From assembly GCF_016653465.1 (NCBI RefSeq), contig NZ_NHSQ01000116.1, forward strand, positions 1 through 41,131: a stretch of DNA of 41,131 bases, in the 5' to 3' direction. The notes under the pieces are model-generated. The model was not told where the DNA came from. It did not search any database and worked only from the letters and a program-made list of their open reading frames with translations. Below are positions 4,493-37,502 of this stretch, one piece after another. The position numbers and the translations under genes are program-made. Origin of the DNA: Thiocystis minor. Lineage in GTDB: Bacteria > Pseudomonadota > Gammaproteobacteria > Chromatiales > Chromatiaceae. Each line of letters begins with the position of its first letter. Within the stretch, counting starts at the first letter, position 1.

Positions 4493-4682
4493 ATTGGGTT
4501 GTCGCTGGTCGGACGTTGTTCGATTGAGTATGGCGAGCGATGAACCGCGCCATCGCAAGCACTCCGTGAAAAATGCAGCAAGACTAACCAAAACGGACGC
4601 CAGTTCCAAATGTTAAACCACGAGGGCGCCAGCCGCCGATAATGCCCGCCGTCCCCAGGTTCTCGTTGGGTACCCCACCGCC

Positions 4683-4775
4683 GTAGGAGCCCGCTTGCGG
4701 GCGATAGGCCGCGAGCAAAGGCTTCCGGCGACTCCGCCGCGATGTCGACCGCGTCGCCCGCAAGCGGGCTCCTAC
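4683..4775. repeat. REP-type palindrome pair
   Basis: A 22-bp unit at 4683-4704, containing the palindrome GCCCGCTTGCGGGC after GTAGGA, recurs as an exact inverted copy at 4754-4775 about 50 bp away. Each unit can fold by itself and the pair can fold together, as in the REP doublets of gammaproteobacteria. The right unit covers the stop codon of ubiI, so it forms the 3' end of that operon's transcript. Confidence 0.8.
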
Positions 4776-6001
4776 GATGCGGTGTACGGCCGCACCAGCG
4801 GCGGCAGATCCGCGCCCAGACCCAGGGCGCGGTCCATGAACAAGCGTTTGAGCGGCGCAAGACGATCAACGGTCGTCAGGCCCAGACCGCGAATGGCGGC
4901 CAGCGGTTGCCGACTGTCGCCGAAGATCCGTTTGAAGACATCCATGGCGCCAAGCATCAGCAAATTGTCGCCGCGCCGCGCCCGCTCATAATGACGCAGC
5001 GTCCAGAGACCGGCGAGATCGCGACGGCGTTCGATCGCCAGATCCAGGGTCGCCGCCAATTCGGCGGCATCCAGAAAACCCAGATTGACGCCCTGCCCCG
5101 CCAGCGGATGGATAGCATGGGCGGCATCGCCGATCAATGCCAGTCCCGGTAGGACATACTGCTTGGCATGCTGTAACCGCAGCGGGACGGACGCGCGCGG
5201 TCCGTCCAGGATCAAGCGACCGAGGCAAGATTCGGAGGCGTCGGTGACCATCTCCGAAAACAGCCCGTCGTTCAGATTCATGAGTTCGAGCGCGCGCTCG
5301 TCGTCGGCGCTCCAGACGATCGAACAACGCCCGTCGGACAGCGGCAGCAGCGCCAGCGGCCCCGTCGGCAGGAAACGCTGCCAGGCGGTCTCCTGGTGCC
5401 AATCGGCGGGTCTGACGTTGGCGACGATCGCGCGTTGGTCATAGTTCCAGCCCTCGGTCGCGATGCCGGCCAAATCGCGCACCAGCGAATCGCGGCCGTC
5501 GGCCCCGACCAGCAGACGTGCGTCGATCGACCGACCGTCGGCGAACCGGATCCGCGCCGGCGGCTCGCGGCGATCCAGATCCGCGATGACGGCGGGGCAG
5601 ATCAGGGCGACATCCGGGGTTTGTTCCAATCGCTCCCAGAGCGCGAGTTGGATGACCCGATTCTCGACGATATGGCCCAGATCCGCCTCGCCCAGATCCG
5701 CGCTATCGAAACGAATCCGTCCGCTGCTGGCGGCGTCCCACACCCGCATCTGGCGGTAGGGACTGGCGCCGAGTTCCAGGATCCGCTCCCAGACGCCCAG
5801 GCGCTGAAGCATCCGTTGGCTGGCCCGACTCAGGGCCGAGACCCGCAGATCCACTTCGCCCGCCGGCCAGTCGCGAAGCGGCGCGCGCGACTCGATCAGG
5901 GCGATGGAGAGCCCCTTGCCGGACATGGCGCGGGAGAAGGCCGCGCCAACCATGCCGCCGCCGACGACAGCGATATCGAAGGACTGCTCTGACTCAGTCA
6001 T
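4772..6001 (-). CDS. ubiI: Ubiquinone biosynthesis FAD monooxygenase, UbiI-like
   Basis: A 409-residue flavoprotein of the UbiH/UbiF/COQ6 family, expected to hydroxylate the ubiquinone precursor ring (C5 for UbiI). The N-terminal FAD dinucleotide fold is FDIAVVGGGMVGAAFSRAM, the middle DG motif is LLVGADGRDSLVRDLAG, and the second FAD motif is LIGDAAHAIHPLAGQGVNLG followed by LDAAEL, which is closest to E. coli UbiI/VisC. An upstream in-frame ATG at 6022 exists, but GGAG stands 7 nt before the ATG at 6001, so that start is preferred. It is the last gene of ygfB-pepP-ubiH-ubiI, the same order as in E. coli. The stop codon lies inside a REP unit. Confidence 0.85.
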   Translation of the reverse strand: MTESEQSFDIAVVGGGMVGAAFSRAMSGKGLSIALIESRAPLRDWPAGEVDLRVSALSRASQRMLQRLGVWERILELGASPYRQMRVWDAASSGRIRFDSADLGEADLGHIVENRVIQLALWERLEQTPDVALICPAVIADLDRREPPARIRFADGRSIDARLLVGADGRDSLVRDLAGIATEGWNYDQRAIVANVRPADWHQETAWQRFLPTGPLALLPLSDGRCSIVWSADDERALELMNLNDGLFSEMVTDASESCLGRLILDGPRASVPLRLQHAKQYVLPGLALIGDAAHAIHPLAGQGVNLGFLDAAELAATLDLAIERRRDLAGLWTLRHYERARRGDNLLMLGAMDVFKRIFGDSRQPLAAIRGLGLTTVDRLAPLKRLFMDRALGLGADLPPLVRPYTAS

Positions 6002-10082: not shown

Positions 10083-10280
10083 CCCAAGACACCCCCTGTA
10101 GCGTTCGATCATGGTCTGGGTATTTTCTTGAGCCTAATTGCTACCCAGGGGATATGACAGCAAGGCTGTTGAGCATGTCCGTCTTCGAGCGGAAAGCCTG
10201 AAGTCAAGCCAAGTGTCCCCACTTGAACCGCTTGGTTCAAGAACGAAGACCGATAACGGCGTCAATGGGGGGTGTCCCTT
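10083..10280 (+). ncRNA. ssrS: 6S RNA
   Basis: 6S RNA binds the sigma70-RNA polymerase holoenzyme and mimics an open promoter. Recognisable conserved parts are TGAGCATGTCCG followed by GCGGAAAGCCTGAAG, and the 3'-half hairpin CTTGAACCGCTTGGTTCAAG. The ends pair: GACACCCCC (10088-10096) with GGGGGTGTC (10268-10276) forms the closing stem. The location between zapA and the ygfA-type gene is the classical one. The exact termini are uncertain by several bases. Confidence 0.88.
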
Positions 10281-15221: not shown

Positions 15222-15283
15222 GGTCCGCACAGCGGACCCTACGCAACCCCAACACCTCGTCCGTAGGGTCCGCTGCGCGGACC
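15222..15283. repeat. Inverted REP-like repeat pair between cbbM and cbbQ
   Basis: Two 22-bp arms at 15222-15243 and 15262-15283 are inverted copies with one mismatch. The core is CGTAGGGTCCGCTG-GCGGACC, and each arm is also internally palindromic (GGTCCGC/GCGGACC). It is a dispersed intergenic repeat type distinct from the pair at 4683 and the one at 16289. Confidence 0.8.
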
Positions 15284-15359: not shown

Positions 15360-16166
15360 ATGAGCATCGACACCGAGCAGTACCAAGTCAAACAGGAGCC
15401 CTTTTACCAGCCTCAGGGCAATGAGATCGCACTCTACGAGGCCGCCTACCAGCGTCGCCTGCCGGTGATGGTCAAGGGTCCGACCGGTTGTGGAAAATCC
15501 CGTTTCATCGAATACATGGCCTGGCGCCTGGGTAAACCGCTGATCACCGTCGCCTGCAACGAGGACATGACCGCCTCGGATCTGGTCGGGCGCTATCTGC
15601 TGGACGCCACCGGCACGCGCTGGCTGGACGGCCCGCTCACCGTGGCCGCCCGCATCGGCGCCATCTGCTATCTGGATGAGGTCGTCGAGGCCCGCCAGGA
15701 CACCACCGTGGTCATCCACCCGCTGACCGACCACCGGCGCAGCCTGCCGCTGGACAAAAAGGGCGAGGTCGTCACCGCCCATCCGGACTTCCAGCTCGTG
15801 ATCTCCTACAATCCGGGCTATCAATCCCTGATGAAGGATCTGAAGCAGTCCACCAAGCAGCGCTTCTCCGCCCTGGTTTTCGACTATCCGCCGGCCGACC
15901 TGGAAACCCAGATCGTCGCCACCGAAACCGGCGCGAGCACGGAACTGGCCGCCGCCCTGGTCAAGATCGCCGCCGCCGCCCGCAACCTCAAGGGGCACGG
16001 GCTCGACGAGGGAATCTCCACCCGGCTACTGGTCTACGCCGCCAACCTGATGGACGAAGGCATCGCGCCGCGCGAGGCCAGCCGCATGGCGCTGGTCGAC
16101 CCGCTCACCGACGACGAGGATATTCGCTCCACGCTGCACCATGCGATCGATGCGGTGTTTCCCTAA
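15360..16166 (+). CDS. cbbQ: RuBisCO activation AAA+ ATPase CbbQ (form II set)
   Basis: A 268-residue MoxR-type AAA+ ATPase. Walker A is GPTGCGKSRF at about 40-49, Walker B is ICYLDEVVEA near residue 100, and sensor/arginine-finger segments follow (VISYNPGYQSLMKDLKQSTK). CbbQ hexamers work with CbbO to strip inhibitory sugar phosphates from RuBisCO. It follows cbbM and precedes a cbbO, so it most likely serves the form II enzyme. A close paralogue lies in the form I operon at 32707. The gap to cbbM carries a terminator and an inverted repeat. Confidence 0.94.
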   Translation: MSIDTEQYQVKQEPFYQPQGNEIALYEAAYQRRLPVMVKGPTGCGKSRFIEYMAWRLGKPLITVACNEDMTASDLVGRYLLDATGTRWLDGPLTVAARIGAICYLDEVVEARQDTTVVIHPLTDHRRSLPLDKKGEVVTAHPDFQLVISYNPGYQSLMKDLKQSTKQRFSALVFDYPPADLETQIVATETGASTELAAALVKIAAAARNLKGHGLDEGISTRLLVYAANLMDEGIAPREASRMALVDPLTDDEDIRSTLHHAIDAVFP

Positions 16167-16288
16167 GGCGATTTCCAGGGAAGTTTTTACCCGGAATCAA
16201 CGCTTCAAATGGACAGGATTAACAGGATTTTTCAACATGGTTCCAGGGCTCGGATCGATGCTGCTCGACGCGAATGTTGCGGGGCATC

Positions 16289-16366
16289 CCTGTAGGGGCG
16301 AATTCATTCGCCCCGACATCCCGATATCGGCGCAATCCACGCGGCGAATAAATTCGCCCCTACAGG
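16289..16366. repeat. Inverted repeat pair between cbbQ and cbbO
   Basis: Arms of 24 bp at 16289-16312 and 16343-16366 are inverted copies with one mismatch; the core is TGTAGGGGCGAATT-ATTCGCC. The element fills much of the 340-bp gap between cbbQ and cbbO, in which no gene is visible. A transcript would fold into a long hairpin with a 30-nt loop. Confidence 0.8.
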
Positions 16367-16509
16367 ATTGCATCCTGCTCAAGGGATGGATTTTCAGGAA
16401 ATAACCTAACCATTGATCTGGCGTGCGGTTCGGTTACCCATCGGCCCCCGGCCGGGGTACCCTGAAGCCTTGCCCCAGACCGATCCGTGACAACCCCGCC
16501 GGAGCCACC

Positions 16510-30696: not shown

Positions 30697-32115
30697 ATGG
30701 CAAAGACATATAGCGCGGGCGTCAAGGAATACCGCGAAACTTACTGGATGCCCGATTACAAGCCTAAGGAAACCGACCTGCTTGCCTGCTTCAAGATCAC
30801 CCCGCAGGCCGGTGTGCCGCGTGAAGAAGCCGCCGCCGCTGTCGCCGCCGAATCCTCGACCGGCACCTGGACCACGGTCTGGACCGATCTGCTGACCGAC
30901 CTCGATCATTATAAGGGCCGCGCCTACGCCATCGAGGATGTGCCCGGCGACGATTCCTGTTATTACGCCTTCATCGCCTACCCCATCGATCTGTTCGAGG
31001 AAGGCTCGGTCGTCAACGTCTTCACCTCGCTGGTCGGCAACGTCTTCGGTTTCAAGGCCGTGCGCGCGCTGCGTCTGGAAGACGTGCGCTTCCCGATCGC
31101 CTATGTCATGACCTGCAACGGCCCGCCGCACGGCATCCAGGTCGAGCGCGACATGATGAACAAGTACGGTCGTCCGCTGCTCGGCTGCACCATCAAGCCC
31201 AAGCTGGGTCTGTCGGCCAAGAACTATGGCCGCGCCGTCTACGAGTGTCTGCGCGGCGGTCTGGACTTCACCAAGGACGACGAAAACGTCAACTCGCAGC
31301 CCTTCATGCGCTGGCGTCAACGCTTCGACTTCGTGATGGAGGCCATCGACAAGGCCGAGCGCGAGACCGGCGAGCGCAAGGGTCACTATCTGAACGTGAC
31401 CGCGCCGACCCCGGAAGAGATGTACAAGCGCGCCGAGTATGCCAAGGAGATCGGTGCACCCATCATCATGCACGACTACATCACCGGCGGCTTCTGCGCC
31501 AACACCGGGTTGGCCCAGTGGTGCCGCGATAACGGCCTGCTGCTGCACATTCACCGCGCCATGCACGCCGTGCTCGACCGCAATCCGCATCACGGTATCC
31601 ATTTCCGTGTGCTGACCAAGATCCTGCGTCTGTCGGGCGGCGACCACCTGCACACCGGCACCGTCGTCGGCAAGCTGGAAGGCGACCGCGCCTCCACGCT
31701 CGGCTGGATCGACCTGCTGCGCGACTCCTATATCAAGGAAGACCGCTCGCGCGGCATCTTCTTCGATCAGGATTGGGGTGCGATGCCGGGTGCCTTCGCG
31801 GTCGCCTCGGGCGGCATCCACGTCTGGCACATGCCGGCCCTAGTCACCATCTTCGGCGACGACTCCGTCCTCCAATTCGGTGGCGGCACCCTGGGTCATC
31901 CCTGGGGCAACGCAGCCGGCGCCGCGGCCAACCGCGTCGCGCTGGAAGCCTGCGTCGAGGCCCGCAACCAGGGCATCGCGATCGAGAAGGAAGGCAAGGA
32001 CGTGCTCACCAAGGCCGCCGCCTCCAGCCCCGAGCTGAAGATCGCGATGGAGACCTGGAAGGAGATCAAGTTCGAGTTCGACACCGTCGACAAGCTCGAC
32101 GTGGCGCACAAGTAA
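30697..32115 (+). CDS. cbbL: Form I RuBisCO large subunit
   Basis: A 472-residue form I large subunit that fixes CO2 onto RuBP, working as L8S8 with CbbS. The first catalytic Lys is in [15 protein letters not shown]. The carbamylated Lys and Mg ligands are in [20 protein letters not shown]. Loop 6 is [12 protein letters not shown], and [20 protein letters not shown] closes the active site. The order cbbLS-cbbQ-cbbO without carboxysome genes marks the IAq (cytosolic) type. GAGG lies 10 nt before the ATG. Cysteine and N-terminal sequence are typical of proteobacterial green-like form IA. Confidence 0.97.
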
Positions 32116-32118
32116 GCT

Positions 32119-32202
32119 GCCAGCGACCAGCGATCAGCCACCAGCTAAACCACGGCCGCCTGCTTCCACTCGCTGGAAGCTGGCCGCTGGAGGCTGGAGG
32201 CT
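32119..32202. repeat. Inverted GCTGGNN heptad arrays, cbbL-cbbS gap
   Basis: Left arm (32119-32145): GCCAGC, GACCAGC, GATCAGC, CACCAGC. Right arm (32172-32202): GCTGGAA, GCTGGCC, GCTGGAG, GCTGGAG, GCT. The arms are opposite in strand and separated by 26 nt. The 4-5 constant bases of each unit can pair while the two variable bases bulge, giving a segmented hairpin in the mRNA between cbbL and cbbS. Confidence 0.85.
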
Positions 32203-32232
32203 CAAATCAAGAACAATCGGAGCATCACACCA

Positions 32233-32589
32233 ATGAGCGAAATGCAGGATTACAAGTCCAGTCTCGAAGACGTCAACAGCCGTAAGTTCGAGACCTTTTC
32301 CTATCTGCCGGCGATGGATGCCGACCGCATCCGCAAGCAGGTCGAGTACATCGTCAACAAGGGCTGGAACCCGGCCATCGAGCACACCGAGCCGGAAAAC
32401 GCCTTTGACCACTTCTGGTACATGTGGAAGCTGCCGATGTTCGGCGAGACCAACGTCGACGCCATCCTAGCCGAGGCCGAGGCCTGTCACAAGGCGCATC
32501 CCAACAACCATGTGCGCCTGATCGGTTTCGACAACTACGCCCAGTCCAAGGGCGCCGAGATGGTGGTGTTCCGCGGCAAGCCGGTCTGA
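32233..32589 (+). CDS. cbbS: Form I RuBisCO small subunit
   Basis: A 118-residue small subunit. Recognisable segments are [20 protein letters not shown], then [16 protein letters not shown], the [11 protein letters not shown] strand, and [20 protein letters not shown]. It completes the L8S8 enzyme with CbbL. The 117-bp gap to cbbL is unusually long for this pair and is filled by heptad repeat arms, as is the gap to the next gene. The short spacing after the right arm leaves CGGAGC upstream of the ATG as ribosome site. Confidence 0.96.
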
Positions 32590-32591
32590 TT

Positions 32592-32670
32592 GACAGCCGC
32601 CAGCTTTCAGCCTCCAGCAGCCAGCCGAATCAACCTTTTGCTGGCCGCTGATCGCTGGCCGCTGGCCGCT
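32592..32670. repeat. Inverted GCTGGNN heptad arrays, cbbS-cbbQ gap
   Basis: Left arm (32592-32625): GACAGC, CGCCAGC, TTTCAGC, CTCCAGC, AGCCAGC. Right arm (32640-32670): GCTGGCC, GCTGATC, GCTGGCC, GCTGGCC, GCT. The loop is 14 nt. The left arm begins 3 nt after the cbbS stop. Its segment CGCCAGC-TTTCAGC is identical to the left arm at 33516, showing common origin. Confidence 0.87.
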
Positions 32671-32706
32671 TAACCTCCATCGCATCCAACCCTGGAAATC
32701 GTCGCC

Positions 32707-33513
32707 ATGACCGACATCGACCGTGACCAATACCAGATCAAGAGCGAGCCTTACTACCGCCCCGTGCACAACGAGGTGGAGATGTACACGGCTGCTTACG
32801 AGGCCCGCATGCCGGTCATGCTCAAGGGGCCGACCGGCTGCGGCAAGACCCGTTTCGTCGAGTACATGGCCTGGAAGCTCGGCAAGCCGCTGATCACCGT
32901 CGCCTGCAACGAGGACATGACCGCCTCGGATCTGGTCGGGCGCTTCCTGCTCGACATCAACGGCACCAAATGGCAGGACGGCCCGCTGACCGTCGCCGCG
33001 CGCATCGGCGCCATCTGCTATCTCGATGAAGTCGTCGAGGCGCGTCAGGACACCACGGTCGTCATCCACCCGCTCACCGACCATCGCCGCAATCTGCCGC
33101 TGGAGAAAAAGGGGGAGCTGGTCCAGGCGCACCCGGATTTCCAGATCGTCATCTCCTACAACCCCGGCTATCAGAGCCTGATGAAGGATCTGAAACAATC
33201 CACCAAGCAACGCTTCGGCGCGCTCGATTTCGACTACCCCACCGCCGAGATCGAGACCGAGATCGTCGTCCACGAGGGCGGAGTCGACCAGTCGACCGCC
33301 GAGAAACTGGTTCAGGTTGCCCATCGCAGCCGCAATCTCAAGGGACACGGACTGGACGAAGGCATGTCGACCCGACTCCTGGTCTATGCCGCCCAACTCA
33401 TCGGCAAGGGCATCGACCCGCAATCCGCCGCCCGCATGGCCCTGGTCTGCCCGCTGACCGACGATCCGGATATGCGCGATACCCTGGACGCGGCGGTGAA
33501 TACGTATTTTTGA
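32707..33513 (+). CDS. cbbQ: RuBisCO activation AAA+ ATPase CbbQ (form I set)
   Basis: A 268-residue AAA+ ATPase, clearly paralogous over its whole length to the CbbQ at 15360. Walker A is LKGPTGCGKTRFVEYMAWKL, Walker B is ICYLDEVVEA, and the segment VISYNPGYQSLMKDLKQSTK is identical in both. It follows cbbLS and should power CbbO-dependent removal of inhibitors from the form I enzyme. Known CbbQO pairs in Acidithiobacillus show preference for their own RuBisCO form. Divergence between the two copies is concentrated in the N-terminal 25 residues and the C-terminal third. Confidence 0.94.
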   Translation: MTDIDRDQYQIKSEPYYRPVHNEVEMYTAAYEARMPVMLKGPTGCGKTRFVEYMAWKLGKPLITVACNEDMTASDLVGRFLLDINGTKWQDGPLTVAARIGAICYLDEVVEARQDTTVVIHPLTDHRRNLPLEKKGELVQAHPDFQIVISYNPGYQSLMKDLKQSTKQRFGALDFDYPTAEIETEIVVHEGGVDQSTAEKLVQVAHRSRNLKGHGLDEGMSTRLLVYAAQLIGKGIDPQSAARMALVCPLTDDPDMRDTLDAAVNTYF

Positions 33514-33515
33514 GC

Positions 33516-33976
33516 CTCCAGCCGCCAGCTTTCAGCCACCAGCGCAGGGGCGCGGATGAGGGATTATCGCAAACTGAGTGTTTGGACTAGCGCGCATCTC
33601 CTGGCGCTCTCTGTGTATGACGCGACGAAGGGATTTCCTGCGGACGAGCGGTTTGGGCTATCCGCCCAGATGAGGCGCGCCGCCGTCTCCATTCCTTCCA
33701 ATATCGCCGAAGGTTGTGGCCGGGGAACCGATGCGGATTTTGCCCGATTCGTCAGAATCGCGGTGGGTTCAGCCAACGAGCTCGAATACCAATGTTTGCT
33801 ATCCAGAGACCTACACTATCTATCCCAGGATCAAGCCCAAGTGTTGATGGTGCGTTGCTCCGAGGTGCGTCGCATGCTCGCGGGCCTGCTCTCCAAACTC
33901 GTTCAATCCGCCGTATAGACGCTCGCTACCCGCTGAAACCCTCTGGCTGGAAGCTGGCGACTGAAAGCTGGAGGCT
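33516..33976. repeat. Heptad-repeat arms bracketing a four-helix-bundle gene
   Basis: Left arm 33516-33543 (CTCCAGC, CGCCAGC, TTTCAGC, CACCAGC) starts 2 nt after the cbbQ stop. Right arm 33946-33976 (GCTGGAA, GCTGGCG, ACTGAAA, GCTGGAG, GCT), with a lone GCTGAAA at 33932, ends 6 nt before the cbbO start. The arms are inverted like those at 32119 and 32592, but here the loop is about 400 bp and contains one complete gene. This has the form of a mobile unit. Confidence 0.85.
33556..33918 (+). CDS. Four-helix-bundle protein, S23/IVP family
   Basis: A 120-residue helical protein of the family first seen as products of 23S rRNA intervening sequences (TIGR02436/PF05635), related in fold to the Avd accessory protein of diversity-generating retroelements. 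The signature is FPADERFGLSAQMRRAAVSI then PSNIAEGCGRGTDADF, followed by GSANELEYQCLLSRDLHYL. The fold is known to assemble as pentamers and bind nucleic acid; the cellular role is unclear. It interrupts the otherwise standard cbbQ-cbbO pair and lies between inverted heptad arms. The parallel cbbMQO set lacks it. It probably arrived as an insertion and has no direct role in RuBisCO activation. Confidence 0.88.
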   Translation: MRDYRKLSVWTSAHLLALSVYDATKGFPADERFGLSAQMRRAAVSIPSNIAEGCGRGTDADFARFVRIAVGSANELEYQCLLSRDLHYLSQDQAQVLMVRCSEVRRMLAGLLSKLVQSAV

Positions 33977-33982
33977 CCTAAA

Positions 33983-36358
33983 ATGACCATCGACTTCAGC
34001 GAATACCTCTCCTGCCTCAAGGCCGATCCCGAGCACCCGCACGCCCAGGCGCTGGAGGCGAGCTATCACGAGGCGGCGCGGGTGATGTCTGCGCAGGGAC
34101 TGGGGCATTATCTGACCGGCATCCGCGCCATGTGCGGGCTGAACAGGGGAACGGATCTGGTACTAACCTACGTCCAGGAAATGCCGGGGGTCGCCAAAGA
34201 GGTCGGCGAGGACATCATCCCCGAGGTCGTCAGCGCCCTGATGAAGCTCGCCTCGCACACCTCGGGAACCGTGGTCACCCTGATGATGGCCAACATGCCG
34301 CTAGCCGCCAGCCGGCTCGGCGATGCGGAGGTACTGCGCGGCTATCTCAATCTGCTCCATCAGCTCGCCGGCAAGGCCCCGCGCGGTCTGCGCCCGATGA
34401 TGGAGAACATGGACGAACTGCTCTCCAAGCTGACCCTCGGCGGGCTACGCCGCTGGGCGCTCTGGGGTGCGCAGGCGCATGCGCGGGATCTGGACGGTCA
34501 GATGGCCTATTTCGGGCTCCAGACCGAATCCTCCCGATCGGTGCTCCAGAAAGAGCGTCGCGGTACCCTCTTCGTCGACAACCAGCGCCGGCTCAATTTC
34601 TATCTGCGCGCGCTCTGGGCGCGCGCCTTCTTCATGCGCCCGACTTCCGGCGACTATGAGTCGCGCCAGGGTCTGAAGCCCTTCGTCGAGGATTTCCAGA
34701 TCCATCTGCCCGACGCCTTCGACCCCTGGCGTGGCATCGCCGGGATCGAACTCTATCGCGCCGCCGCCGCCCATTGCGCCGCGCACATGGTCTATACCAC
34801 CCAGCCGCTCAGCGCCGAACAACTGAGCCAGGCACAGATGGCCTTCATCGGGATCTTCGAGGATGCGCGCGTCGAGAATCTGGCCATCCGCGAATTTCCC
34901 GGCCTGAAAAAGCTCTGGCTGCAATTCTTCACCACACCGCCGGGCGGCGACGATGACGGCGAGCGTCATCCGATGATGGATCTGATGATGCGTCTGGCCC
35001 AGGCGCTGCTCGACGCGGACTATCGCGACGCCCATCCGCTGATCAACGAGAGCGCCGAGGATTTTCGGCGCGTCTTCGCCGAGCGGGCGGAGGACAACCG
35101 CATCAGTTGGGACGCCGGCGTGACCTTCTACAACCGGGTTCTCCAGGTCATCCCGCTGCCGAGCGTACGCATCCTGGAGTCCTGGCCCCTGCCCTACCGG
35201 GACGACAACCGTTATGTCTGGGCGTTCGACGAGAACCTCTTCCTCACGCGCGGGACCGATTATCTCCCGGTCTCCCAGCAGCAGGTCCGGCGCAACGTCA
35301 GCGTCATGGAGATGGTCAACGAACTGGACTGCGAACTGGCCGGCGACGACGCCCAGGAGATCTGGACTCTCTCGACCGAGTTCTGGCTCGACCAGGAAGG
35401 CTGCACCATCAACGAACTGGAGGGCAAGGAACCGGTCTCCGACCCCTATCATTATCAGGAGTGGGACTACCACGTTCAGCTCTATCGTCCGGATTGGGCG
35501 ACCGTCATCGAGCGCCGCCAGGGCCGTGGCGACCCGGAGCGGATGGACGAGATCCTGACCAAACACAAACCGGTCGCGAGCCGCATCCGGCATCTGATCG
35601 ACGCCATGCAACCCCAGGGCATCGTCCGTCGGCGCGGCTACGAGGAAGGCGAGGAACTGGACCTGAACGCCGCCGTGCGCGCCATGATCGACATCCGGCG
35701 CGGCATCATGCCCGACCCGCGCATCAACATCCGGATCGACCGCCACATCCGCGACCTCTCGCTGGTGGTCCTCATGGATCTGTCGCAGTCCACCAACGAG
35801 AAGGTCGGAATCGCCGAGGGCGAACCGGGGTACGCGGACGCCCCGAGCATCCTCGACCTGACGCGCGAGGCCACCGGCCTGCTGGCCTGGGCAATCGACT
35901 CCATCGGCGACAACTTCGCCGTCCACGGCTTCGCCTCGGACGGTCGCCACGATGTCCAATACTACCGCTTCAAGGACTTCAATCAGCCCTACGACGATCA
36001 CGCTAAGTCACGCATGGCCGGGATGAAGGGCGGACTCTCGACCCGCATGGGCGCCGCGTTGCGTCACGCCGGCTGGCATCTCACCCAGCAATCGGCCAAA
36101 AAGCGCCTGGTGCTGGTCATCACCGACGGCGAGCCCGCCGACATCGACGAACGCGACCCGCAGTATCTGCGCCACGACGCCAAGAAAGCGGTCGACGATC
36201 TGCGGATGCTCGGCATCCATACCTACTGCCTGACGCTCGACCCCCAGGCGGACCGCTATGTCGCCCGCATCTTCGGCGAGAACAGCTATTCCATCGTCGA
36301 CCATGTCCAGCGGCTGCCCGAACGGCTGCCGGCGGTGTTCGCGGCGCTGACGGGGTGA
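33983..36358 (+). CDS. cbbO: RuBisCO activation protein CbbO with VWA domain (form I set)
   Basis: A 791-residue paralogue of the CbbO at 16510. The C-terminal VWA domain (about 590-791) has the metal-binding DLSQS in LVVLMDLSQSTNEK and ITDGEPADIDERD. Shared segments include YHYQEWDYHVQLYRPDWATV and PDPRINIRIDRH. It should couple CbbQ ATPase activity to the form I RuBisCO. The ATG follows 6 nt after the right heptad arm; GGAGGCT inside the arm serves as its ribosome-binding site, so the repeat supplies part of the cbbO translation signal. It is 38 residues longer than the form II partner, with differences in the N-terminal and middle regions. Confidence 0.92.
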   Translation: MTIDFSEYLSCLKADPEHPHAQALEASYHEAARVMSAQGLGHYLTGIRAMCGLNRGTDLVLTYVQEMPGVAKEVGEDIIPEVVSALMKLASHTSGTVVTLMMANMPLAASRLGDAEVLRGYLNLLHQLAGKAPRGLRPMMENMDELLSKLTLGGLRRWALWGAQAHARDLDGQMAYFGLQTESSRSVLQKERRGTLFVDNQRRLNFYLRALWARAFFMRPTSGDYESRQGLKPFVEDFQIHLPDAFDPWRGIAGIELYRAAAAHCAAHMVYTTQPLSAEQLSQAQMAFIGIFEDARVENLAIREFPGLKKLWLQFFTTPPGGDDDGERHPMMDLMMRLAQALLDADYRDAHPLINESAEDFRRVFAERAEDNRISWDAGVTFYNRVLQVIPLPSVRILESWPLPYRDDNRYVWAFDENLFLTRGTDYLPVSQQQVRRNVSVMEMVNELDCELAGDDAQEIWTLSTEFWLDQEGCTINELEGKEPVSDPYHYQEWDYHVQLYRPDWATVIERRQGRGDPERMDEILTKHKPVASRIRHLIDAMQPQGIVRRRGYEEGEELDLNAAVRAMIDIRRGIMPDPRINIRIDRHIRDLSLVVLMDLSQSTNEKVGIAEGEPGYADAPSILDLTREATGLLAWAIDSIGDNFAVHGFASDGRHDVQYYRFKDFNQPYDDHAKSRMAGMKGGLSTRMGAALRHAGWHLTQQSAKKRLVLVITDGEPADIDERDPQYLRHDAKKAVDDLRMLGIHTYCLTLDPQADRYVARIFGENSYSIVDHVQRLPERLPAVFAALTG

Positions 36359-36387
36359 TTGAATCGGCTGAATGAAAACCGGAAAAG

Positions 36388-36444
36388 CGCAAAGGACACA
36401 AAGAACAGCAAGATGCATTCTTTGCGCCCTTCGCGTCCTTTGCG
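36388..36444. repeat. Inverted repeat between cbbO and ruvB
   Basis: CGCAAAGGAC (36388-36397) and GTCCTTTGCG (36435-36444) are perfect inverted arms in the 88-bp convergent gap. Additional partial units (CAAAGAA, TTCTTTGCGC) lie inside. It could end transcription from both sides, but no long T-run is present, and it resembles a dispersed intergenic repeat. Confidence 0.65.
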
Positions 36445-36446
36445 GT

Positions 36447-37502
36447 TCAATTGTCCGAGGACTCGAACAAATCGGGAACGCTCCCCGGCTGCAGCGAGCG
36501 CGGCGACGTCAGCCCGAAATGCAAATAGGCCGACTGGGTCGCCATGCGCCCGCGCGGGGTCCGCATCAGATACCCTTGTTGGATCAGGAACGGCTCCAGC
36601 ACGTCCTCGATCGTCCCGCGCTCCTCGCCGATCGCGGCGGCCAGACTCTCCACCCCCACGGGTCCGCCGTCGAACTTCTCGATCACGGCCTCCAGCAGAC
36701 GCCGGTCCATGTGATCGAAGCCCAGTGCGTCGACCTTGAGCATCCCCAGCGCACGATCGGCCACCTCGCGCGTGATCCGCCCATCGGCCTTGACCTGCGC
36801 GTAATCCCTAACCCTGCGCAGCAGACGATTGGCGATGCGTGGCGTGCCGCGCGAACGCCGCGCGATCTCGGCGGCGCCATCGGGATCGGTCTCGATGGCG
36901 AGAATCTGGGCCGAGCGTTTCACGATGGTGGTCAGATCCTCCGCCGAGTAATACTCCAGCCGCTGCACGATGCCGAAGCGGTCGCGCAGCGGCGAGGTTA
37001 GCAGCCCCGCGCGCGTGGTCGCGCCGACCAGGGTAAAGGGCGGCAGATCGAGCTTGATCGAGCGCGCCGCCGGTCCGTCGCCGATCATGATATCGAGCTG
37101 ATAATCCTCCAGCGCCGGATAGAGCATCTCCTCGACCACCGGGCTGAGACGGTGGATTTCGTCGATGAAGAGCACGTCGCCCGCGTCCAGATTGGTCAGC
37201 AGCGCAGCCAGATCGCCCGGTTTCTCCAGCACCGGCCCCGAGGTCTGGCGCAGCGTCACCTGCATCTCGTGGGCGATGATGTGCGACAGCGTGGTCTTTC
37301 CGAGTCCGGGCGGACCGAAGATCAGCACATGATCCAGCGCCTCCTTGCGTGCGCGCGCCGCGCCGATGAATATCTCCATCTGCTCGCGCACCGCCGGCTG
37401 GCCGACATAATCGACCAGCTTGCGCGGACGGATGGCGCGGTCGATCGACTTGTCATCGGTCGCAGCCTCGGGGTCGATGAGACGGTCGGCGTTATTCATC
37501 AA
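36447..37502 (-). CDS. ruvB: Holliday junction branch-migration helicase RuvB
   Basis: A 351-residue AAA+ motor that drives branch migration with RuvA. It begins with the usual [20 protein letters not shown]. Walker A is [14 protein letters not shown] (about 62-75), Walker B is [19 protein letters not shown], sensor I is [20 protein letters not shown], and the C-terminal winged helix ends [21 protein letters not shown] codons at 37502 and 37499 are tandem alternatives. ruvA and ruvC are not adjacent. It is followed by cbbO in convergent orientation. Confidence 0.96.

Follow-up and report, generated by a model that had tools for sequence, protein, structure and literature searches.

The window analysed here, a stretch of 41,131 nucleotides from the gammaproteobacterium Thiocystis minor (contig NZ_NHSQ01000116.1), carries a cbbLSQO operon for form I Rubisco, and all three of its intercistronic gaps hold inverted arms made of seven-base repeats, with five repeats per arm. 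In the gap between cbbQ and cbbO, the loop between the arms is an intact open reading frame (ORF) for a four-helix-bundle protein of the S23/IVP family. This arrangement, proposed in a first-pass annotation of the stretch, was recovered by direct reading, by pattern search and by a heptad scan. The features of the region are as follows.

30697..32115, + strand: cbbL, form I Rubisco large subunit, host gene
32115..32145, + strand: left arm of an arms-only element in the cbbL-cbbS gap, five AGC at spacing 7, the first AG overlapping the cbbL stop
32172..32202, + strand: right arm of the same arms-only element, five GCT at spacing 7
32233..32589, + strand: cbbS, Rubisco small subunit, host gene
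32595..32625, + strand: left arm of an arms-only element in the cbbS-cbbQ gap, five AGC
32640..32670, + strand: right arm of the same arms-only element, five GCT
32707..33513, + strand: cbbQ, AAA ATPase with a CbbQ_C domain, host gene, presumably with a Rubisco activase role
33513..33543, + strand: left arm of the full element in the cbbQ-cbbO gap, AGCCTCC AGCCGCC AGCTTTC AGCCACC AGC
33556..33918, + strand: S23/IVP four-helix-bundle protein, 120 aa, intact (PF05635, TIGR02436)
33946..33976, + strand: right arm of the full element, reverse complement AGCCTCC AGCTTTC AGTCGCC AGCTTCC AGC
33983..36358, + strand: cbbO, VWA-domain protein, host gene, named from its position and VWA domain

Each of the six arms contains five AG dinucleotides at a spacing of seven; the right arms read GCT, and once ACT. 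The three-unit GCTGG heptad pattern, with at most two mismatches, matched 17 times in the window compared with 0.22 expected (100 shuffles, largest count 2). The heptad scanner detected five of the six arms, and the sixth, which contains the ACT unit, was recovered at two mismatches by the pattern search. The first-pass annotation had placed the arms uniformly 2-3 nt after stop codons, which is not so: the first AG overlaps the stop of cbbL (TA/AG) and that of cbbQ (TG/AG, using the A of the stop TGA), and it lies 5 nt after the stop of cbbS. The same annotation was right that the first two loops span 14-26 nt (26 nt in cbbL-cbbS, 14 nt in cbbS-cbbQ) and that a string, CGCCAGCTTTCAGCC, is common to two of the three gaps. 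Before cbbO, the outermost right-arm heptad, GGAGGCT, occupies the expected Shine-Dalgarno position and supplies the Shine-Dalgarno-like sequence of that gene. The left arm of cbbL-cbbS also pairs with the right arm of cbbS-cbbQ (32113-32149 and 32636-32672, 37 nt, 86%) in the top inverted repeat listed, so that these outer arms of the two arms-only gaps bracket cbbS as an inverted pair.

The enclosed ORF matched both family profiles far above their cut-offs (PF05635, E 8e-39, 132.5 bits, cut-off 33.8; TIGR02436, E 1e-36, 125.2 bits, cut-off 24). Its AlphaFold model is a four-helix bundle (pLDDT 97.2), and the structure matches were 2gsc (TM 0.93), then 2rld, then the Avd protein 4dwl (TM 0.77). 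Five chains are present in each of 2gsc and 2rld, and the S23 family protein of X. campestris is described as a toroidal homopentamer (PMC4990558). The ratio of nonsynonymous to synonymous substitution rates (dN/dS) was 0.05-0.19 in eight of nine pairs, three of the eight having dS above 1.8, and the ninth was saturated; the IVP protein evolves under purifying selection. Profile searches with the window IVP matched no catalytic domain. S23/IVP proteins were termed functionally uncharacterised in 2016 and in 2024 (PMC4990558, PMC11270868).

IVP genes were then compared at 139 loci, comprising 63 from the host's family and 76 from a scan of species genomes (the wide set). A PF05635 search of 116 genomes of the host's family gave a match in 47, over the cut-off in 40. 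The 63 family loci are the 56 best of 80 rows over the cut-off and seven weaker ones, with L095, a second fetch of L010, removed; four of the eight PF05635 rows of the window's own genome are among those analysed. The wide set is drawn from the best 80 of 585 relatives and thus leans towards the window's own IVP. These 80 loci come from Bacteroidota, Acidobacteria, Chloroflexi, Planctomycetota, Verrucomicrobia, Clostridia, candidate phyla and one archaeal metagenome-assembled genome; 76 of them had flanks of at least 120 bp, the archaeal locus (L163) being among the four omitted. The two sets overlap at least once (the protein of L164 is that of L019), an overlap removed in 86 representatives with less than 60% protein identity.

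A period-7 array was present on at least one side of the gene in 113 of the 139 loci (left in 96, right in 85, both in 68). Among the 86 representatives, 68 had an array on at least one side and 45 on both. The share of family flanks over the 99% shuffle limit was 64% at period 7, compared with 1-12% at periods 4-6 and 8-12; for wide flanks it was 66%, compared with 0-9% at periods 5-6 and 8-11. In the controls, 6% of 34 flanks of GxxExxY genes (17 of 22 rows used) passed the period-7 limit, and a score of at least 0.77 was reached by 6 of 120 outer segments of the family loci. Period-7 arms belong to the IVP gene family, not to one heptad. The first-pass annotation had allowed that four-helix-bundle genes elsewhere might be free of such arms, or that the heptads might be generic, unpaired repeats; the counts and controls given here run the other way on both points. 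An apparent inversion of the ORF between its arms at L030/L031 was rejected, as it merely reflects the strand of the retrieved locus.

The first-pass annotation took NNCCAGC as the general heptad. The letters proved instead to be locus-specific around a constant AG, with AGTTGTC, AGTGGTT, AGGGGTG, AGCTATC and others at the first family loci scanned, most of which had arrays. Within a locus, the two arms resembled each other more than arms swapped between loci, both in the family set (0.695 versus 0.476, 32 loci) and in the wide set (0.658 versus 0.452, 36 loci), and also when positions 3-7 were taken alone (0.564 versus 0.298, 41 loci), with 0 of 20,000 permutations as extreme in each case. 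Inverted similarity exceeded direct similarity in 27/32 family and 30/36 wide loci. The two arms of one locus carry complementary heptads, and the heptad letters differ among loci. Runs of at least four AG at spacing 7 were found in 116 of 278 flanks, compared with 0-10 flanks at spacings 4-6 and 8-12. There were 38 runs of four, 52 of five and 15 of six; runs ended at five in 52/94, at four in 38/132 and at six in 15/42 (Fisher 8e-5; 9e-4 on the 86 representatives).

These comparisons bear on the view that the heptads arose by generic slippage in intergenic DNA and are unconnected with the gene, which we regard as highly improbable. Slippage would fit the greater likeness of units within an arm (0.80) than between arms (0.67), and the pure tandem (GCTGGCG)n arrays, distinct from the inverted arms, that make up part of the exact three-unit matches genome-wide. 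The genome of the window has 56 such matches (36 forward, 20 reverse) and is one of nine genomes, out of 54, that have any. The reversed control pattern, with 0 matches in the own genome, is found elsewhere (11 in G004, 10 in G005, 3 in G021, 1 in G027), which also fits slippage. Slippage is opposed by the inverted orientation, the complementarity within loci, the specificity of the period, the gene-level control and the occurrence of arrays with other letters in Bacteroidota and other phyla, and the test of matched against swapped arms already contradicts it. Generic low-complexity DNA was rejected on the period, arm-swap and gene-level controls.

The position of elements between genes was judged from codon distances to mechanically called ORFs, for arms with four or more AG; some of the stops may therefore fall inside arrays. 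The outer end of the left arm lay -3 to +6 nt from an upstream stop on the same strand in 33 of 60 cases, and within 30 nt in 49 of 60. On the other side, a co-directional ORF started within 120 nt after the right arm in 51 of 57 (median 10 nt), and the right arm was within 30 nt of the stop of a convergent ORF in just 11 of 57 loci. The element therefore usually occupies the space from one stop to the following start of a gene in the same orientation.

Arms-only copies give evidence of movement. Five sites of such copies, elsewhere in the genome than the cbb gaps, were compared with G004 and G005, two genomes of the window's genus, and three of the five had an empty site, with direct repeats of 4-6 bases. 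At L108, AATC stands on both sides of the filled site and once in the empty site of G005; at L107, AAACC does so, with a single copy in the empty G004. The L109 site (G000:C74, G004:C20, G005:C1 1856800) is empty in G005. In G000, TTCATC stands to the right of the heptad copy and a diverged version of it to the left, and G004 carries at this site an element with nonamer arms and a perfect TTCATC duplication. This sharing of a six-base target by heptad and nonamer elements hints at shared target choice or shared machinery. No empty site was obtained for the other two: L111 is also filled in G005 and in G004 has been replaced, and L114 aligns from end to end in both genomes. Twelve arms-only copies with a related loop of about 95 nt align across three genomes. 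Like miniature inverted-repeat transposable elements (MITEs), the arms-only copies have inverted ends, a loop too short for the IVP gene, several related copies and a target site duplication at the empty site (AATC at L108, AAACC at L107). They are mobile and insert with short target duplications.

The first-pass annotation had modelled an arm-ORF-arm element that leaves arms-only derivatives. The intergenic element, its arms-only relatives and the three empty sites agree with this. The derivation by loss of the ORF fared less well: no IVP homology was detected in the 4 of 12 loops tested (best E 1.5), on which ground the 95-nt loop was rejected as an IVP remnant, and the larger arms-only family, having its own loop, is not simply the element minus its ORF. 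Loss of the ORF does describe the cbbQ-cbbO gap of G058, which reads by eye as a decayed copy that retains both arms and, of the ORF, just the C-terminal end, with no tblastn hit.

Such copies lend themselves to another account, doubtful in our view, in which mRNA tolerates the element as a selfish hairpin that a host or unrelated transposase moves, the IVP having some other task (e.g. RNA protection, or an immunity-like one) and not reading the arms. Arms-only copies are common (12 aligned, one loop family, three genomes), they show target duplications without an IVP gene, the nonamer element in the identical L109 target suggests shared machinery or hot spots, and the IVP matched no catalytic domain. 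Against this stand the arrays on at least one side of 113/139 IVP genes in many phyla, and the preferred repeat number of five, which is also the number of subunits in the solved family member.

The contents of the cbb gaps differ between relatives. An IVP element follows cbbQ in ten genomes (7 of 30 cbbQ loci compared, and three more), and the next gene is cbbO in nine of them, the contig of G118 ending first. By eye, the 39-40 bp gaps of G032 and G099 hold right-arm remnants alone, and some further relatives have other contents in the cbbQ-cbbO gap. G101 has a GxxExxY-like element where G054, with flanks 98.5% identical, has an IVP element. Within the window's genus, the cbbQ-cbbO gap holds a GxxExxY element in G004 (cbbQ 96% identical in DNA), a gene that reads by eye of its translation as Fic-type in G005, and 32 bp in G001. 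The cbbL-cbbS gap of the genus is arms-only in G000 and G005, has a nonamer-arm element in G004 and measures 46 bp without arms in G001. The intercistronic cbb gaps serve as insertion sites, with contents that change from one close relative to the next.

We consider it unlikely that, as the first-pass annotation suggested, the arms are domesticated regulatory hairpins tuning the translation or mRNA stability of cbbL, cbbS, cbbQ and cbbO. Such a role would agree with the stable RNA folds of the two arms-only gaps (z -3.3 and -5.3 relative to shuffles; z -2.4 for the whole cbbQ-cbbO gap, with 2 of 100 shuffles equally good), with the GGAGG that the outermost right-arm heptad places before cbbO, and with the persistence of right-arm remnants alone in G032 and G099. 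Against it, close relatives differ freely in gap content, having heptad or nonamer arms, a Fic-type gene or none of these, which speaks against a conserved regulatory need, and a Shine-Dalgarno-like 4-mer lies within 22 nt of only 14 of the 51 downstream starts.

The nonamer arms belong to a second arm-ORF-arm class, made of GxxExxY (TIGR04256) genes flanked by about three locus-specific repeats of near nine bases (CACGGAG.., CACGGAT.., CGCAGAG..), again with arms-only copies. It resembles the heptad class in its arm-ORF-arm layout, its presence in the same gaps and its locus-specific arms, and differs in protein family and in the number and length of the repeats. Sites of this class are window 36377-36447 (after cbbO), L110, the cbbL-cbbS gap of G004 and the cbbQ-cbbO gaps of G004, G047, G059, G065, G071, G096 and G101. 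At L110 the element lies inside a heptad element. TIGR04256 matches were obtained in G004 and G047; the ORFs of G059, G065, G071, G096 and G101, and the cbbQ neighbour of G047, were named by eye. Period 9 passed in 21% of 34 GxxExxY flanks and other periods in 6-15%, so that the nonamer period is weakly shown. No description of a GxxExxY arm element was found in the accessible text of the papers retrieved that use the name.

Elsewhere in the window, three further strong inverted repeats differ in sequence from the arms (4682-4776, 23 nt, perfect; 15222-15283, 22 nt, 95%; 16284-16371, 32 nt, 88%). A second CbbQ-like gene (15363-16160) is 74% identical to the cbbQ at 32707, and a 6S RNA lies at 10090-10275 (RF00013, 76.4 bits).

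The closest known system is the intervening sequence (IVS) of rRNA. IVSs with an S23 ORF occur in the 23S rRNA of Leptospira and Coxiella (Ralph and McClelland 1993, via PMC4990558 and PMC3936711). In C. burnetii, the IVS combines an S23 ORF with a terminal inverted repeat of 28 bp, is excised by RNase III and has tandem GACAGAT heptamers before the ORF, i.e. AG at spacing 7; old proposals saw such sequences as mobile or selfish (PMC4990558). IVP genes have also been reported between cas genes (PMC3936711) and in rRNA insertions of bacteria of the Candidate Phyla Radiation (PMC11270868). The element described here resembles the rRNA IVS in that a terminal inverted repeat encloses an S23/IVP gene, and the sizes are similar (428 nt in C. 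burnetii, a 472-bp gap here). Unlike it, the element is intercistronic in a protein-coding operon, its arms are locus-specific AG heptads over many loci, and it has arms-only relatives with target duplications. It lies between cbbQ and cbbO, not in 23S rRNA, and the window gave no rRNA match. That IVP elements are chiefly rRNA insertions was rejected, with 0 rRNA matches in the 40 of 80 wide loci searched.

A second comparison is with Avd, the accessory protein of diversity-generating retroelements (DGRs), whose homology with IVP has been noted (PMC10053308). Avd (4dwl; chains of the DGR ribonucleoprotein 8ub7-8ube) shares the four-helix bundle, at TM 0.77, and gave weak profile matches. The window IVP scored below both curated cut-offs (bAvd 26.7 bits, cut-off 40; Avd 22.7, cut-off 80), and its element has neither a reverse transcriptase nor template and variable repeats. 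Its neighbours are cbbQ and cbbO, with no adjacent reverse transcriptase in a search that covered the neighbourhood and did not extend to the rest of the genome.

REPIN/RAYT elements and MITEs are short intergenic elements with inverted arms and short target duplications, whose non-coding copies are presumably moved in trans. The present elements share these traits. They differ in that the element ORF encodes a four-helix bundle and not a TnpA-REP tyrosine transposase, and in that their arms, built as arrays of locus-specific heptads, lack a single fixed terminal sequence.

Heptamer repeats also occur in cyanobacterial intergenic DNA as short tandemly repeated repetitive (STRR) sequences, and the unit of those in Xanthomonas and Nostoc is GGGGAAT. 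Published intergenic cases are the TAACTGA heptamers of Beggiatoaceae (PMC4679880), the tandem heptanucleotides of Geobacter (PMC2700814) and the heptamer repeats of Xanthomonas and Nostoc (PMC4692102). In complement, tandem TAACTGA becomes AGTTATC and fits the general AGNNNNN unit. Inverted pairs are mentioned for just one TAACTGA set and, in figure legends, for the Geobacter sites, which are described as mostly paired. The accessible parts of these descriptions do not tie the repeats to an S23 protein.

Taken together, the cbbQ-cbbO gap is probably occupied by a complete mobile S23/IVP 'intervening sequence' element inserted between operon genes instead of in 23S rRNA, and the other two gaps by non-coding relatives of it. 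Such an element consists of an arm of about five AGNNNNN heptads, the IVP gene and the inverted arm. In the transcript, the arms would pair and bring the stop and the next start close together, which could explain how such an insertion can be tolerated. By analogy with the rRNA IVS, cleavage of the stem by RNase III is probable. As the solved family member is homopentameric and AG runs peak at five, we propose that one ring reads one arm. The IVP is predicted to be a pentamer, a ring of five four-helix bundles that would recognise five spaced AGs, one per subunit. An analogous ring, that of the trp RNA-binding attenuation protein (TRAP), reads spaced GAG/UAG triplets. Recognition of the arms by the IVP would mark the ends of the element for movement, including those of arms-only copies in trans.

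A broader proposal, which we put forward tentatively, is that IVP elements form a mobile class spanning phyla. A pentameric ring would read five AG steps among freely drifting heptads; each copy would have private termini, in which AG every seven bases, about five times and inverted, is kept. Insertion would target stop codons, in the direction of transcription, and may proceed through an RNA intermediate; the IVP would then play a part like that of Avd, alongside a reverse transcriptase provided in trans. The GxxExxY elements would be a parallel solution with other arms.

Several observations weigh against the main interpretation, that of a mobile IVP element whose protein recognises the arms. 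No period-7 array was found on either side of 26 of the 139 IVP loci by the shuffle-limit test, and no transposase or reverse transcriptase lies inside the element. No empty site was found for an IVP-bearing element, all three belonging to arms-only copies. In a tree of 130 rows (13 family rows and one over-long wide protein omitted), nine of the ten cbbQ-linked IVPs fall in one supported clade with the tenth beside it, so the insertion is old there and not hopping. AG is the top dinucleotide in runs at spacing 7, with GT second at 90 flanks. The five-fold mode is moderate (five versus six alone, p 0.04, and 0.12 for the representatives), longer arrays occur, and ten arms-only elements had five AG in 10 of 20 arms, the others having 3 to 7. 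Between arms, units were as similar at the same index (0.665) as at another (0.673), so position-by-position pairing of arm units was rejected for want of a signal; the arms are homogenised as arrays and not copied unit by unit through the stem. It follows that the repeats have spread inside each arm and that pairing of the stem is not enough to explain them. Protein and heptad similarity were uncorrelated below 50% protein identity (Mantel test, L164 left out), so the variable letters are not read by old protein lineages, and an old co-evolution of the IVP protein with the heptad letters was rejected.

This kind of element is already known from rRNA. As to the generality of its arms, the accessible portions of the open literature yielded no paper linking IVP genes generally to inverted heptad arms, which is weak evidence of novelty. 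For the host, core operon gaps such as those of cbb are sites where insertions come and go between close relatives. For the family, the rule that ties IVP genes to AG heptads offers a first testable handle on uncharacterised proteins, through assays of binding, processing and movement. Under this rule, rRNA intervening sequences, the heptamer repeats of intergenic DNA and orphan 'four helix bundle' genes would all belong to one class of element.

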